Shown here in pieces: positions 51,581-56,690 of a stretch of DNA of 64,000 nt. Both the position numbers and the translations under genes were made by a program. This DNA is from Sphaerotilus uruguayifluvii (GTDB lineage: Bacteria; Pseudomonadota; Gammaproteobacteria; Burkholderiales; Burkholderiaceae_C). Under the pieces are notes generated by a model. It was not told the DNA's origin and ran no database searches. It worked only from the letters and a program-made list of their open reading frames with translations. Each line of letters starts with the position of its first letter. The first letter of the stretch is position 1. Where the stretch lies: the NCBI RefSeq assembly GCF_013294065.1, contig NZ_JABSNM010000013.1:21941-85940 (forward strand). The letters run 5' to 3'.

Positions 51581-51601
51581 CATTTGCATGATGTCCGCAC
51601 G

Positions 51602-53221
51602 ATGCCCCTGATCCCGAAGTCGATGCTCGACCCCGAGCGCCTGCCGCAGGCGCTGCAGCCGCTGCGCCTGCCGGTGTTCCGCATGCTCTGGCTGGCCTGG
51701 CTGGCGGCCAACCTGACGATGTGGATGAACGATGTCGCGGCCGCCTGGCTGATGACGCAGCTCACCGACAGCGCGGTGATGGTGGCGCTGGTCTCGGCGG
51801 CGTCGACGCTGCCGGTCTTCCTGCTGGGCCTGCCCAGCGGGGCGCTGGCCGACATCGTCGACCGCCGGCGCTGGTTCGCCTCCACCCAGCTGTGGGTGGC
51901 GCTGGTGGCCACGCTGCTGGCGATGCTGGCGCTGGCCGAGGGCATCACGCCGCACCTGCTGCTGGTGCTGACCTTCGCCAACGGCATCGGGCTGGCGGCG
52001 CGCTGGCCGGTGTTCGCGGCCATCGTGCCGGAGATCGTGCCGGCGGCCTCGCTGTCGGGGGCGCTGGCGCTGCAGGCGATGGCGATGAACCTCTCGCGCA
52101 TCCTCGGCCCCATCGTGGCCGGCGCGGTGCTGGCGGCCTCGGGCAGCGCGGCGGTGTTCGTGCTCAATGCGGTGCTGTCGCTGCTGGCCTTCGCGCAGAT
52201 CCTGCGCTGGAAGAGCAGCCCGCGCATCAGCGCGCTGCCGGGCGAGCGCTTCGTCGGCGCGATGCGGGTGGGCGTGCAGCATGTGGCGCAGAACCCGCGC
52301 ATGCGCGCGGTGCTGCTGCGGGTGTTCGTGTTCTTCTTCCTGAGCACTGCGCTGACCGCGCTGCTGCCGCTGGTGGCGCGCCGGCTCGGCGGCGGGGCGG
52401 GGGGCTTCACGCTGCTGATGGCCTGCATGGGGGGCGGCGCGATGACGGCCGTGATGATGCTGCCGCGACTGCGCGAGCGCCACAGCCGCGACCGCATCGT
52501 CGGCCTGGGCTCGCTGATCGTGGCGGGGATGACGCTGGTGGTGGCGTTGGCGCCCTGGCTGTGGCTGGCCGCGCTGGGCATGGCGCTGGCCGGCATGGCC
52601 TGGATCGCCACCGCCAACACGCTGACGATGTCGGCCCAGCTGGCGCTGCCCAACTGGGTGCGCGCGCGCGGCATGTCGACCTACCAGATGGCGCTGATGG
52701 GCGGCTCGGCCGCCGGCGCGGCGACCTGGGGGCATCTGGCGGGCTGGACCTCGGTGCCGACGGCGCTGATCGTGTCGGCCGCCTGCGGGCCGCTGGTGCT
52801 GCTGGCGGTGCGCGGCTTCACCGTCTCCGGCCAGGAGGCGGACCTGCGCCCGGCGCTGCCGGCGGTGCCGCCCAATCCGGCCACCGACATCGGCCCGGAC
52901 GAGGGGCCGGTGATGGTGACGGTGGAATACCTGATCGATCCGGCGCGCGCCGCCGACTTCGCCGAGGTGATGCGGCTGACGCGGCGCGCGCGGCTGCGCC
53001 AGGGGGCGCTGTCGTGGGGCCTGTTCCGGGATACCGAGCGGCCGGGGCGGTATGTCGAGTACTTCGTCGACGAGACCTGGGTCGAGCACCTGCGCCGACT
53101 GGAGCGCTTCACGGCCGACGACGTGCAGCTGCGCGGGCGGCGGCTGGCGTTTCACCTGGGGGCGGAGGCGCCGAAGGTACGGCGGTATGTGGGGGAGGCG
53201 CTGGAGGGGGTGGGGCGGTGA
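51602..53221 (+). CDS. MFS exporter (MFS_3 / EntS-like) with C-terminal ABM-like domain
   Basis: A 539-residue transporter. Residues about 20-410 contain 11-12 helices with the MFS motif [12 protein letters not shown] after helix 2. Residues about 430-539 form a soluble tail ([16 protein letters not shown] ... SWGLFRDTE ... [21 protein letters not shown]) resembling the antibiotic-monooxygenase-like tail found in this MFS subfamily. Substrate unknown. ATG 51602 is preferred to an upstream TTG. A diverged, broken copy of its 3' end is present at 56427-56690, on the other side of the integron. Its last 70 nt are unusually G-rich. Confidence 0.88.
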
Positions 53222-53228
53222 TTCAGGC

Positions 53229-53751
53229 TCAGGCCGCCAGCAGCGCATCCAGCGGGCTGCGTGTCGTGCCGGCGGCGATCTTGAGGACGTGGGTGCAGAT
53301 CATGGTCGTGCTCACGTCGCTGTGACCGAGCAGTTCCTGCACGGTGCGAATATCGGTGCCACCCTGCAGCAAGTGCCTGCTCGCGGGTATTTGCGGTCCA
53401 GTGCGTGCGGTGTTTCGACCGCGCCATCTCGTTCATCCAGGGCAAATCGACGCCGATCACCTCGCGATAGAGGAACAGCAGTGCCGACAGCGCCTGTTTG
53501 TGTGTCGAGACAGAGACCCGCCGCACGTTGGTCAGGTGGGTCAGGAACGCCTCGACCTCGGCGGCGCCCATGTCCTTGGGGTGGCGCACGCCGTGGAATC
53601 GGATGTAGGCGCGGCTCCAGGACAGGTAGGCCTCCTCGGTCTTCAGGCTGTAGTGCAGGTACCGGATGCGCTCGCGCAGCTGGTCCAGCAGGCGCTTCGA
53701 CTGCAGCGGCGGGCGGTCGGCCGACGTGCTGCGGCGAGGTGGGTGGTTCAT
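53229..53751 (-). pseudogene. Integron integrase remnant (tyrosine recombinase)
   Basis: Residues 1-114 from ATG 53751 match the N-terminal core-binding domain of IntI-type recombinases ([58 protein letters not shown]). Then most of the catalytic domain, roughly 130-150 residues, is missing. The C-terminal end reappears in another frame from about 53375 to the TGA at 53229: [21 protein letters not shown], then MICTHVLK where intact integrases have MIYTHVLK. Thus the catalytic Tyr is Cys, and box I Arg and most of the fold are lost. A short piece around 53375-53401 (LDRKYPRAG in a third frame) may be another remnant. Not functional. Confidence 0.85.
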
Positions 53752-53929
53752 GCGGGCAGTCTGGCGTGGTGGCGGCCGGAGGCCAATCGCCCTGAAGCGG
53801 GATGCGGGTGGGGGCCGGCGTGCTTTGATAGACGAAAAACGTGCTGGCGGCTATGCTGATCGGCCATGTGCAGGCGGCCTGACTGGCTGTGCTCGGTGCA
53901 GGGTTTCACGGTCCATTTAGGGGGAGGTT

Positions 53930-53962
53930 ATGCGTCAAGCTGCGGAAAAATTTCAATGCTGA
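53930..53962 (+). other. Ten-codon mini-ORF upstream of attI
   Basis: ATG at 53930 encodes MRQAAEKFQC and stops at TGA 53960-53962. GGGGGAGG (53920-53927) lies just upstream, although only 2-4 nt from the ATG. Class 1 integrons carry a comparable short ORF at attI that boosts translation of a cassette gene lacking its own ribosome binding site. Coding status here is unproven. Confidence 0.3.
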
Positions 53963-53984
53963 CAACAAATTGCGTGCCGTTCCG

Positions 53985-54049
53985 GCGCCAGGTTAGATGG
54001 CGGCGACCACGTTAGACAGCAGGGCCGTGAGGTCTAAATTACGTTAGGC
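53985..54049 (+). other. attI-like integron recombination site
   Basis: GTTAGAC (54011-54017) followed by AGCAGGGC and, 25 nt on, the crossover core GTTAGGC (54043-54049). The layout GTTA..CAGCAGGGC...CTAAA...GTTAGGC closely parallels the known attI1 sequence of class 1 integrons (GTTACGCAGCAGGGC...CCTAAAACAAAGTTAGGC). It lies between integrase remnant and cassette 1, exactly where attI belongs. The upstream limit is approximate. Confidence 0.82.
53997..54047 (+). other. Mini-ORF spanning attI
   Basis: ATG at 53997 encodes 16 residues (MAATTLDSRAVRSKLR) and ends in TAG at 54045-54047, inside the crossover core GTTAGGC. This resembles the attI-spanning ORF-17/ORF-11 of class 1 integrons in position and length. 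The ribosome binding site is weak (CCAGG 53988-53992). Translation is a hypothesis. Confidence 0.3.
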
Positions 54050-54086
54050 AGCAGAGAGATGCGCAGCTAGCCACTACGAGACGTCA

Positions 54087-54881
54087 ATGGCCTCTGTATT
54101 TCTTTGCCACGCATCGGAAGACAAACAGCAAGTAGAGGCGATGCAGCTGGCGCTCGCCAATGCAGGCGTCAATGTCTTCTACGATCAGGAGAGCCTTCCA
54201 GCCGCGGGCGACTACCAGGCTCGCATCCGCGCGGCCATCAAGCAATGCGACGTATTTGTCTTTGTCGCTTCGCCTGCATCTATCATGCCCGGCAGATTCA
54301 CCCTAACCGAACTGAAGTTTGCACGCGAGCGCTGGCCGAGCCCGGTCGCTCGGGTTCTATCAGTCACCTTGGGTGAGGTGAAGGCCGCCGAACTACCTCA
54401 GTACCTGCAGGCGGCAACCATCCTGAGCATCTCGGGCAACGCCGCCGCTGAAGTTCGCGCATCGGTCGACTCCCTACTTGGGGAGCTCAAGCGCCGTCGC
54501 CTTAGAAGGTACGCGATTGCTGCAGGCCTGATCGCACCCGCGGCGATCGCCATTCCCGCCGTGGGCATTGGCTGGCCGCCTTGGCTGCCCAGCAACAAGT
54601 GGTCGCATTTTACCTACGAGACTTTCTTCAAGGGACCAACGAGTTGGAGCGGAGAATTTCGGCGGGAGAGCAACGGACAGTGGCTGGAGTTCAATCGGGA
54701 ACATCAGACCTCCCGTCGATGGAATGAAGGAACCTCTTCGACGCTCGGTCGTATTCGCCTAACTGACGGCAACGCGATCATTGAAATCGCTCCAAAGGAG
54801 AAGACTATCTACTACACCGATGTCGGCTCACCTGGGTATCCGCTTCTGAAGCCAATATACAGAATTCTCGACGGGGCATAG
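54087..54881 (+). CDS. Cassette 1: TIR-domain protein with membrane segment and novel C-terminal domain
   Basis: A 264-residue protein. Residues 3-135 are a TIR domain: SVFLCHASEDK at the first strand, VFYDQESLPAAGDYQARIRAAI (BB-loop region), CDVFVFVASPAS, and the helix FTLTELKFARERW with Glu75 at the position of the catalytic glutamate of NAD-cleaving TIRs. Residues about 142-162 are hydrophobic and could span the membrane after an RRRLRR cluster. Residues 165-264 form a polar domain (SHFTYETFFKGPTSWSGEF, QWLEFNREHQTSR) that I do not recognise. Bacterial TIR proteins often act in anti-phage defence or NAD signalling; a defence role here is inference. Flanked by attI and attC1. Confidence 0.82.
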   Translation: MASVFLCHASEDKQQVEAMQLALANAGVNVFYDQESLPAAGDYQARIRAAIKQCDVFVFVASPASIMPGRFTLTELKFARERWPSPVARVLSVTLGEVKAAELPQYLQAATILSISGNAAAEVRASVDSLLGELKRRRLRRYAIAAGLIAPAAIAIPAVGIGWPPWLPSNKWSHFTYETFFKGPTSWSGEFRRESNGQWLEFNREHQTSRRWNEGTSSTLGRIRLTDGNAIIEIAPKEKTIYYTDVGSPGYPLLKPIYRILDGA

Positions 54882-54924
54882 GTCACGCCCCCTGCGTGTC
54901 CGCGCTGCCACGAAGCGCCCTGCT

Positions 54925-55052
54925 GCCTAACAGGTCGTTCAACCGGACGCGCTACGGCAGCCGTCGCCTGGCCGCTCCGGGCCAGGTCGGTTATCGTCCC
55001 TCCGCGGCCAGGCGCCATCTGCCTCCGCACGCCGGTTAACTCTGCGTTAGGC
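54925..55052 (+). other. attC site 1 (128 bp)
   Basis: R'' GCCTAAC at 54925-54931 and R' GTTAGGC at 55046-55052. L'' GTTCAACCGG (54937-54946) pairs with L' CCGGTTAAC (55032-55040) leaving one extrahelical C in L'', the base that fixes strand choice by the integrase. The central region carries a further imperfect stem (GCCTGGCCGC 54966-54975 with GCGGCCAGGC 55004-55013). It closes cassette 1. Confidence 0.92.
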
Positions 55053-55055
55053 GGC

Positions 55056-55637
55056 ATGATGAACGGGGTAGCGAAAGTTGCGCGCGTGATTACTTGGGGC
55101 GTCTTCCTGCTCGTTTCACTGATCACTGCTGGGCTCAGCCTCGCACCTGAAGACGAACGCCACATTGCCGGAATGTTCCAAGCGGCATTGTTCTTCTCTG
55201 GTGTTCCAGTTGTGGCGGCTGCCGAGTTCCATATACAACGGTTCGAGTTAAGGCAAGGAGCCACACCCGGCAGCCTAGTGCTTGTGCTTGGTGCGCTACT
55301 TATGAGCTATCTAGCTATCTCCGTCATGGCGGCACACTCCGAGCCCACAATGGGCTGGGGGCTTCTGTTGAGTTGGCTATTCGTCTTCGTCGGTCTAGGC
55401 TCGTTGCGCCCAAGCGCACATCTTGAGCGGCGTCTCCTCTTGGGAAGTGCGGGGTTCATCAGTTTGGGCGCTGCTTTGCTCCTACTTCTCGGTCTTTGGC
55501 TTTGGCCCGAGTTCTACTACGGCTACCTAATGCAAAGAGGACACCTTGAATGGACACCGTATTTCATGTCGTTGCTCGGCTTCGTATTCTGGGTGGCACT
55601 ATTGGCGTTTAATGTCCGGGTTAAGCGTGCCGCCTAA
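55056..55637 (+). CDS. Cassette 2: unrecognised polytopic membrane protein
   Basis: A 193-residue protein with about six hydrophobic helices (for example VITWGVFLLVSLITAGLSLAP, FQAALFFSGVPVVAAAEF, LVLVLGALLMSYLAISVMA, GWGLLLSWLFVFVGLG, GFISLGAALLLLLGLWLWP and FMSLLGFVFWVALLAF). No family is recognised. The ATG lies 4 nt after the R' core of attC1, leaving no room for its own ribosome binding site except inside attC1; ATG 55059 is an alternative. The stop TAA is part of the R'' core of attC2. Base composition is well below that of the flanking chromosome. Confidence 0.7.
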   Translation: MMNGVAKVARVITWGVFLLVSLITAGLSLAPEDERHIAGMFQAALFFSGVPVVAAAEFHIQRFELRQGATPGSLVLVLGALLMSYLAISVMAAHSEPTMGWGLLLSWLFVFVGLGSLRPSAHLERRLLLGSAGFISLGAALLLLLGLWLWPEFYYGYLMQRGHLEWTPYFMSLLGFVFWVALLAFNVRVKRAA

Positions 55638-55721
55638 CTGGTTGGTCAAGCTGACGCCAAAAGGCTCTGCCTTTTGGTGCCCTCCGCTTCGCTGCGGCGC
55701 AGCTTACCGCGGGCGTTAGGC
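55632..55721 (+). other. attC site 2 (90 bp)
   Basis: R'' GCCTAAC at 55632-55638 and R' GTTAGGC at 55715-55721. L'' GGTCAAGCTG (55644-55653) pairs with L' CAGCTTACC (55700-55708), again leaving a single extrahelical C. Inside is a small hairpin CCAAAAGG / CCTTTTGG (55657-55677) and a second GC-rich one. It closes cassette 2. Confidence 0.92.
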
Positions 55722-55727
55722 CCCACA

Positions 55728-56270
55728 TTGCGAACGAGAAGCGTCATCCTTGCTATCGCAGCCTGCGGCTTCGGCCTCTGTGCTGCGTTGCTGCTCGCGG
55801 ACGCGCCCGCACCCGCCGAAACTGCAGGAGGCCAGGTACTGGGCAATTTCAGCGTCTCCGGCGCCGCTGATCCCCCAGCGAACTTCTCGGAGAAGGCGAA
55901 TGCGTTTCGGGCAGGAGGTGCGCTCTACGTCGAAAAACTGGAGTTCTTCCACAATCCCGGTACGGTGCCCCCGGTCAAGCTGACGAAAGACGAAGGCGGC
56001 GTAGCCGTTGTTCATGTCTGGGCTCATCGACCCCTTGTCCAACTCGCAAGCACGAAATGTGAGTTCGCCAGAACCGTTCGCTTCGCAATTCCCACCACGT
56101 TGCTGGTCGGCGTTAAACGCGTACTCATCGTCAATCACGACACCGAGTCTCGACAGCTCCTATTTGAGAACGAGGAGTTGGCCAGTCTTCTACGGGAGCC
56201 GGAACCTGCCTCGGCCGCCGCTGCTTGGAAGGAGCCCTTGCCCGTGTCCGGCAATGGGTGTGGGGCCTAA
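55728..56270 (+). CDS. Cassette 3: unrecognised exported protein
   Basis: If translation starts at TTG 55728, 6 nt after attC2, the product is 180 residues with an N-terminal signal peptide (RTRSVILAIAACGFGLCAALLLADAPA) and a mature part of mostly beta-like sequence (VLGNFSVSGAADPPANFSEK, RAGGALYVEKLEFFHNPGT, VAVVHVWAHRPLVQLASTKCEF). The open frame extends upstream into attC2, so the start is uncertain. No family is recognised. The stop TAA lies in the R'' core of attC3, as in cassette 2. Confidence 0.6.
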   Translation: MRTRSVILAIAACGFGLCAALLLADAPAPAETAGGQVLGNFSVSGAADPPANFSEKANAFRAGGALYVEKLEFFHNPGTVPPVKLTKDEGGVAVVHVWAHRPLVQLASTKCEFARTVRFAIPTTLLVGVKRVLIVNHDTESRQLLFENEELASLLREPEPASAAAAWKEPLPVSGNGCGA

Positions 56271-56390
56271 CCCTTCGCTCGAGCCGACCCGCTCCGGCAA
56301 GGCACCCTGGCCGCCAAGAGCCCTTTACTATGTTGCTCTCGTCGGCCAGGGCGCCTTGCCTCCACGGTCGGCTCAGCTCAAACGTTAGGC
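56265..56390 (+). other. attC site 3 (126 bp)
   Basis: R'' GCCTAAC at 56265-56271 and R' GTTAGGC at 56384-56390. L'' GCTCGAGCCGACC (56277-56289) pairs with L' GGTCGGCTCAGC (56366-56377), leaving one extrahelical C. The centre has long complementary arms (GGCAAGGC...CCCTGGCC with GGCCAGGG...GCCTTGCC). It closes cassette 3 and marks the end of the array. Confidence 0.92.
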
Positions 56391-56426
56391 CTCGCGGGTG
56401 ACATGGCGGCTAGCCGACAGTCCTAA

Positions 56427-56690
56427 GCGGCGACCTGGGGTCATCTGGCGGGCTGGACTTCGGTCCGACCGCGCTGATGGTGTCGGCGGCCTGTGGGCCG
56501 CTGCGTCGAGTATTTCGTCGACGAGACCTGGGTCGAGCACCTGCGCCGCCTGGAGCGCTTCACCGCCGCCGACGTGCAGCTGCGCGAGCGCCGGCTGGCC
56601 TTCCACGTCGGCGGGCAGCCCCCGCGCGTCAGGCGCTATGTGGGCGAGGCGCTCGAGGGCGGGCGCGCCGCGGCCTCGCTACACTCGTGA
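56427..56690 (+). pseudogene. 3' fragment of a paralogue of the MFS exporter
   Basis: GCGGCGACCTGGGGTCATCTG onward matches the region near 52719 of the intact MFS gene ([12 protein letters not shown]), then a one-base loss shifts frame ([13 protein letters not shown]), then about 250 nt are deleted, and the sequence rejoins at [20 protein letters not shown], running to a TGA at 56688-56690. Over about 150 aligned nucleotides of the tail I count roughly 85% identity by eye, so it is a diverged paralogue, not a recent copy. The region 56391-56426 before it holds nothing recognisable. Confidence 0.82.

Follow-up and report, generated by a model that had tools for sequence, protein, structure and literature searches.

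The 64,000-nucleotide stretch of the Sphaerotilus uruguayifluvii genome analysed here (contig NZ_JABSNM010000013.1, positions 21,941 to 85,940; hereafter the window) carries a decayed, not an active, chromosomal integron at ~53232-56391, where a shredded minus-strand integrase gene (intI) is followed by a plus-strand attachment site (attI) and three cassettes. Integrons are usually described as one integrase and one attI in cis, and arrays that lack an integrase are recognised by their attC sites alone. The window locus belongs to a known kind. Homology searches also showed that several Sphaerotilus genomes hold attI modules elsewhere without an adjacent integrase, some of them then followed by attC-bearing cassettes; such dispersed orphan attI platforms are a new variant of integron organisation. 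We lean towards reading them as a distributed integron, in which orphan platforms would be loaded in trans by few integrases. The fuller claim, that part of Sphaerotilus runs or ran a system of this kind, with a promoter-attI module of ~0.2 kb dispersed over many loci and one or few integrases both loading and swapping cassettes in trans, is put forward tentatively.

The integron in the window

Three remnants of the integrase gene were found on the minus strand; their residues are numbered on an intact Sphaerotilus IntI of 348 amino acids (aa). The C-terminal piece (53232..53375) covers residues 301-348 (tblastn with the intact IntI, 94% identity, E 2e-26) and separately matches TIGR02249 positions 270-315. 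A short middle scrap (53375..53419; residues 225-239) is identical at 15/15 positions (E 3e-07), while the N-terminal piece (53407..53772; residues 4-125) matches with E 2e-63. This last piece scored 153.8 bits with NF011946 and 111.8 bits with TIGR02249, the curated cut-offs of 435 and 265 being far higher. The two profiles and the tblastn remnants thus place an integron-type integrase next to attI. A functional integrase is not encoded here: residues ~126-224 and 240-300 of the 348 are gone, and the integron is therefore decayed.

The attI site (53890..54043, plus strand) was identified by nhmmer with 180 bits (the window being among the seed sequences), by alignment and by a match to the attI model. 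It is homologous to the attI adjoining two full-length intI genes (loci L139 and L141). Its crossover lies after G54043, between 54043 and 54044, and reads GTTAGGC (54043-54049), which fits G^TTRRRY. Ahead of it we predicted by eye a Pc-like promoter, TAGACG-17-TATGCT (53829..53857, plus strand); hexamers resembling it precede many dispersed attI copies, again as judged by eye.

The three plus-strand cassettes occupy 54044..55046, 55047..55715 and 55716..56384, with attC sites at 54925-55052, 55632-55721 and 56265-56390. A covariance model trained on 18 sites from other loci, with the window sites excluded, gave these sites 41.0, 41.2 and 56.1 bits, respectively; the runner-up within the 64 kb had 10.7 bits. 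A scan of the 64 kb for R boxes and folding found only the same three sites, the one at 55632-55721 on one strand only and barely at threshold. As controls, the window was shuffled 10 times with dinucleotides preserved, yielding 1 match in total, and the integron region 30 times, yielding 2 matches that fell in one shuffle. The GC content was 59-60% at 54001-56000 compared to 61-79% in the remaining 1-kb steps of the window.

The initial annotation had described this locus as a frozen chromosomal integron with an integrase remnant, an attI and three cassettes in order, had noted paired R and L boxes in the three attC sites and a cassette composition unlike that of the flanks, and had proposed scoring the sites with a covariance model. 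The order is borne out by the agreement of profile matches, attI homology and attC scores; the boxes are upheld by the folding scan, the shuffles and the model scores of 41-56 bits, and the composition by the GC values. The word frozen also holds, with no IntI match above the cut-off in the own genome and two large internal parts missing from the local intI.

attI modules apart from integrase genes

The attI part of the integron was recovered from many further places when the integron was used in a DNA search of 13 Sphaerotilus genomes. With a sequence-only model built from 15 copies (threshold E<=0.01), we observed 39 matches in 7 of the 13 genomes. The genome G006, an assembly of 3 contigs, had ten of them, followed by G008 with nine, G009 with seven, G000 (the genome of the window), G007 and G012 with four each, and G011 with one; two weak matches, G006:706788 and G007:C14, are in this total but outside the inspected set. 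The attI model had no match in the other six genomes.

Seven matches adjoin an integrase gene or its remains (G000 C13, G007 C47, G012 C75, G008 C64 and C124, G006 2832k, G011 C453). By comparison, 30 matches, spread over 28 fetched loci, lacked any IntI match (E<=1e-4) within the fetched stretch. Upstream DNA could be judged at 26 of these 28 orphan loci, since L195, which probably continues L193, and L204 begin at contig ends. For example, the other attI copies of the own genome, on contigs C1, C6 and C10, are each without an integrase alongside.

The dispersed modules align over about 155 bp with the attI beside intact intI genes. Crossovers were printed for 31 Sphaerotilus loci; 18 of them read GTTRRRY, 3 have an insertion sequence (IS), 1 is at a contig end and 9 deviate. 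The attC sites behind the modules were located separately, in a whole-genome search of six genomes that scored the best 150 candidates per genome. All five attC matches in G006, found with a model containing no G006 site, lie 360-1009 bp downstream of a same-strand attI (P 9e-14 under a simple uniform model). An attC within 2.5 kb downstream of a same-strand attI was the case for 3/3 matches in G000 (two being those of the window), 1/1 in G007 and 1/2 in G012, where the sites on G000 C1 and G012 C58 had belonged to the training set. G001, a genome with no attI match, had five attC matches, some near its own intI remnant, and G003 had no match in this search. At the level of single orphan loci (E<=0.1) there were two attC matches at L194, seven at L264 (one a training site) and one or none at the others.

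Besides the genus, 8 of 200 sampled genomes of the family matched the attI model (E<=0.001), two of them Sphaerotilus. Among the six others, intI was adjacent in one (G192) and absent from the fetched stretch in five. A full-length intI is located 1.4 Mb from attI in G175 and on another contig in G145, and a broken copy elsewhere in G171; no IntI match over the cut-off was found in G110 (one contig) or G059. The G110 locus had seven attC matches (E<=0.1) behind attI, one of them a training site.

Cassette differences at orthologous orphan loci

Ten orthologous pairs of loci were available, nine of them comparable past the crossover. In these nine, the first 200 bp of the cassette were 56-69% alike, compared to a mean of 62% and a 95th percentile of 68.8% in 548 unrelated pairs. 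On the other side of the module, the DNA 45-200 bp ahead of it was 86-96% alike in 8 of the 9 pairs. The ninth pair, L139/L248, is intI-linked; a truncated copy is part of the pairs L192/L198 and L201/L256, and the crossover of L200 is occupied by an IS. The cleanest pairs are L189/L194 at the ABC-permease locus, L190/L191 at the TetR locus (both G008) and L254/L260. Synteny returns further downstream in four pairs (L189/L194, L196/L199, L190/L191 and L200/L202). Since the front junction is shared but the DNA past the crossover is different, the orphan state seems to be older than the cassette differences.

Competing explanations

In the distributed integron as we picture it, orphan platforms would have served as attI sites for a trans-acting integrase, with one or few intI genes serving many platforms, and later loss of intI would have left the platforms frozen, as in the genome of the window. 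The modules themselves might have spread by homologous exchange carrying a gene tail together with the platform, or by an integrase that moved an attI lodged within a cassette.

The orphan loci could instead be former complete integrons, whose own intI loaded the cassettes in cis and was then deleted, with no action in trans. The loci do form a decay series, from intact intI (L139, L141) through large pieces (the window, L140, S. sulfidivorans) and scraps (S. natans, L248) to none, and an intI-linked member is present in each of three attI clades. On the other hand, no intI scrap was seen at the 26 judgeable orphan loci, and orthologous orphan loci share the front junction and differ from the crossover on, which points to at least some exchange after intI loss. 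We consider a history in cis only to be somewhat unlikely. Alternatively, the cassette differences at orphan loci could stem from exchange of homologous DNA between species by way of the flanking genes, with no integrase involved. The window locus is itself an instance of such exchange, its integron being preceded by an imported MFS tail and followed by the displaced native one. Still, the cleanest pairs lose similarity at or next to the attI crossover, which would not be expected of allelic exchange, and among the tested loci a repeated gene tail behind the array occurs at the window locus only. As the source of the cassette differences, such recombination is unlikely. Finally, the dispersed module might be no attI at all but a similar-looking repeat or regulatory element; its front is promoter-like, and in many cases a frame of 32-35 codons stops shortly ahead of the crossover. 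It is very improbable that this explains the family, given that the modules are homologues of attI sites adjoining intact intI genes and that separately modelled attC sites lie behind them far beyond chance, as in the five of five in G006.

Loading in trans, the reading we prefer, has several points against it. The argument presumes that the orphan state predates the split of the species and that array differences did not come from homologous replacement. In the six matchless genomes, several of which hold intI, attI may have diverged beyond the reach of the model. Six of the 28 orphan loci (L192, L247, L252, L256, L258, L259) match the front of the module only and may be dead, and the C10 copy in the own genome is weak (E 0.002). 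G008 and G009 are fragmented assemblies, where some copies may reflect strain mixtures. The attC counts come from a limited number of scored candidates; one of the five G006 matches follows an attI that keeps an intI scrap (L248), and for the G012 match on C74 the fetched stretch contains no attI. Support is weak at the deep nodes of the attI tree. As a separate matter, the aminotransferase locus was examined for an empty site: it has 64 bp in G001, 79 bp in G003, and 0.7 to 5.8 kb of other DNA with no attI match in eight other genomes. It is therefore a general insertion hot spot, which weakens any claim that attI marks the spot.

The window locus in related species

The integron of the window is set in a chromosome-like context common to relatives. 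The gene in front of it encodes an MFS_3 transporter (51584..53221, plus strand; PF05977 E 4.7e-143), whose orthologs, 95-96% identical, led to the genus Sphaerotilus. Comparison of the locus in related genomes, a check suggested by the initial annotation, revealed a platform shared by two species and an empty site in a third genome. Integrase remnants and attI are located behind the MFS gene, at the same locus, in S. sulfidivorans (L008) and S. natans ATCC 13338 (L010). In the metagenome-assembled genome (MAG) L009, the MFS gene is directly followed by a glyoxalase-like gene. As reconstructed from these loci, platform entry is shown to have been one event, between the MFS gene and the glyoxalase-like gene, in the ancestor of the group of S. 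natans, S. sulfidivorans and the window.

The IntI residues left are 4-72, 95-141, 216-228 and 340-348 in S. sulfidivorans, and 89-106 and 342-348 only in S. natans. The window and S. sulfidivorans each retain IntI parts lost in the other, so the ancestral gene would have been fuller and the losses separate. The surviving parts thus show intI to have been broken independently in each of the three lineages. At the S. natans locus, an IS110-family element sits at the crossover and replaces the cassettes; past it, the right junction GTTAGGCCTCGCGGG is identical to that in the window. This locus therefore has no cassettes in S. natans now.

The MFS gene also records how the platform may have arrived. 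Its identity to the empty-site relative L009 drops from 94-98% to 82-87% across the final stretch, so that the last ~180 bp look imported. This tail, just before the integron, is 88-89% identical to the Sphaerotilus MAGs L011 and L012 compared to 83% to L009. Behind the array, the native 3' end of the MFS gene is found displaced and internally deleted (56427..56690, plus strand), as direct repeats of 52718-53208 matching PF05977 positions 472-519; this displaced tail is 92% like that of L009. The simplest reading is that the platform arrived by homologous exchange within the MFS gene. Repetition of the MFS 3' end past the array (56427-56659) had no place in the initial annotation, though its interpretation of the locus as captured, then deprived of its integrase, fits the foreign-looking tail in front, the displaced native tail and the relative with an empty site. 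What that interpretation missed is the divergent decay of intI in three species and the dispersed attI family.

A repeat of the upstream gene's tail was considered as a mark of every platform and rejected: it is present in the window only, and the other tested loci gave nothing or very short repeats. In this test L195 gave a trivial self-match, its upstream being cut. L196 carries a repeated nrdJ-like tail before its attI.

Settings of the modules

According to Pfam, the genes before orphan attI encode an ABC permease, TetR, GntR-FCD, tRNA U5-methyltransferase, aminotransferase class III and LacI-type proteins, and the front gene at the intI-linked argF locus encodes ornithine carbamoyltransferase. 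Most front genes are co-oriented with the cassettes; the one at L254/L260 is divergent. In the attI tree, copies group by locus for five loci (support 0.90-0.99). Two G006 copies from different loci pair together (support 0.94), which suggests attI copying within one genome. The left edge of the shared sequence varies among loci, and the module is therefore not a unit with fixed ends. The locus L247, whose front carries ~110 bp of nrdJ-side DNA behind another gene, was considered as a clean copy of the nrdJ-side platform that had entered an empty site; since the relatives examined do not have its left and right flanks next to each other, a rearrangement is equally likely.

In three attI types (L141, L189-L202, L249-L260), a short open frame preceded by a purine-rich stretch ends just ahead of the attI crossover; many copies of it are 32-35 codons long. 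It is broken early in the window (53930-53962). At 6 loci it has exactly 35 codons; changes by codon position numbered 139, 116 and 163, a slight third-position excess. Such a frame might specify a leader peptide serving translation of the cassettes.

Four attI copies in G007 and G012 (L211, L212, L219, L220) have an IS110-family element (PF02371, PF01548; L200:7303-8853) precisely at their crossover. In the own genome, an IS110-family element directly follows GCCTAAC, a box like the R'' of attC (L201:9389). The element seems to target integron recombination sites.

The argF locus was seen in three states, with intI intact beside one attI type, reduced to a remnant beside another, or nearly lost (L139, L140, L248). 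These variants span two genomes, one being a fragmented assembly that possibly mixes strains. A second, separate scrap of an integron integrase lies at the start of own-genome contig C18 (L138:95-321).

Cassette contents and other features

Cassette 1 of the window encodes a TIR-domain protein of 264 aa (open reading frame (ORF) 54087-54881; PF13676 E 2.7e-15), which by eye probably carries a membrane helix. We claim a TIR domain and no function beyond it; PADLOC matches were weak (best 1.3e-08) and matches to solved structures reached only E ~0.01. Cassette 1 had matches (E<=1e-10) in 12 of 399 sampled Burkholderiales genomes, its own included, with values of 35-43% across the TIR part for the remaining genomes, and no match in a search of plasmids. 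Another TIR-like gene in the own genome (G000:C3:54982-55236) is 45% identical to cassette 1 over 85 residues and has no detected attI nearby. Cassette 2 (ORF 55056-55637) encodes a hydrophobic protein of 193 aa, probably a membrane protein as judged by eye. The product of cassette 3 (ORF ~55728 to 56270) is probably exported, with a signal peptide seen by eye. No Pfam, NCBIfam or PADLOC family was found for cassettes 2 and 3.

The first genes behind two own-genome orphan attI encode a DUF2806 protein (L202:5475-6341) and a protein of 510 aa whose AAA ATPase matches are weak (L260:4902-6434); neither had a PADLOC match at E<=0.001. An Rfam scan of the window at gathering thresholds found tRNAs only. 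Three tandem minus-strand tRNA-Leu(CAG) genes with equal Rfam scores are located at 1-391.

Relation to known systems and implications

A search of the open-licence literature for orphan or dispersed attI and for Sphaerotilus integrons found no report of such a layout among the entries listed, though its component parts are known. Sites named attG have reportedly been described by Loot et al. (2024). Like the dispersed modules, attG sites let cassettes enter the chromosome at a distance from attI; they diverge from attI, as presented in part of PMC12901181, whereas the Sphaerotilus modules can be aligned with it along about 155 bp. Another likeness is with the Delta-attI-type cassettes of mobile integrons, where portions of attI found apart from intI serve as recombination substrates of IntI1; in the portion of the same source that treats them, however, a partial attI replaces the attC that ends a resistance cassette in one array, while in Sphaerotilus a whole attI heads separate loci (PMC12901181).

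A CALIN is a cluster of attC sites lacking integrase, defined by attC alone (excerpts of PMC12444791 and PMC9668308). Some of the orphan loci resemble CALINs, as characterised there, in having attC cassettes without an adjacent integrase, at species-conserved positions and putatively open to an integrase in trans (PMC12444791, PMC9668308). The two or more attC sites of a CALIN were seen at loci such as L194 and L264, the other loci having one or none. Unlike CALINs, the Sphaerotilus loci start with attI, which is able to explain both cassette entry and conserved positions, and because of this attI they fall outside a definition that excludes an integron platform. In Xanthomonas, a sedentary chromosomal integron is located downstream of ilvD, and its intI is inactivated by deletions in many strains (PMC12444791, in part). 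The window locus is similar, with one ancestral platform behind a core gene, a broken intI and frozen cassette content. The sections of that source on Xanthomonas place intI at one locus per genome and make no mention of attI elsewhere, whereas in Sphaerotilus related attI occur at many loci (PMC12444791).

If attI platforms live and are loaded apart from intI, array-finding tools overlook the entry points. Conserved CALIN positions would then be explained, and orphan attI sites could be where position-conserved CALINs of other bacteria originated. One integrase could expose many promoters simultaneously to new genes, and the spread of attI would add a second axis to integron evolution. The platform of the window, shredded by different routes in three species, offers a natural series of integrase loss.

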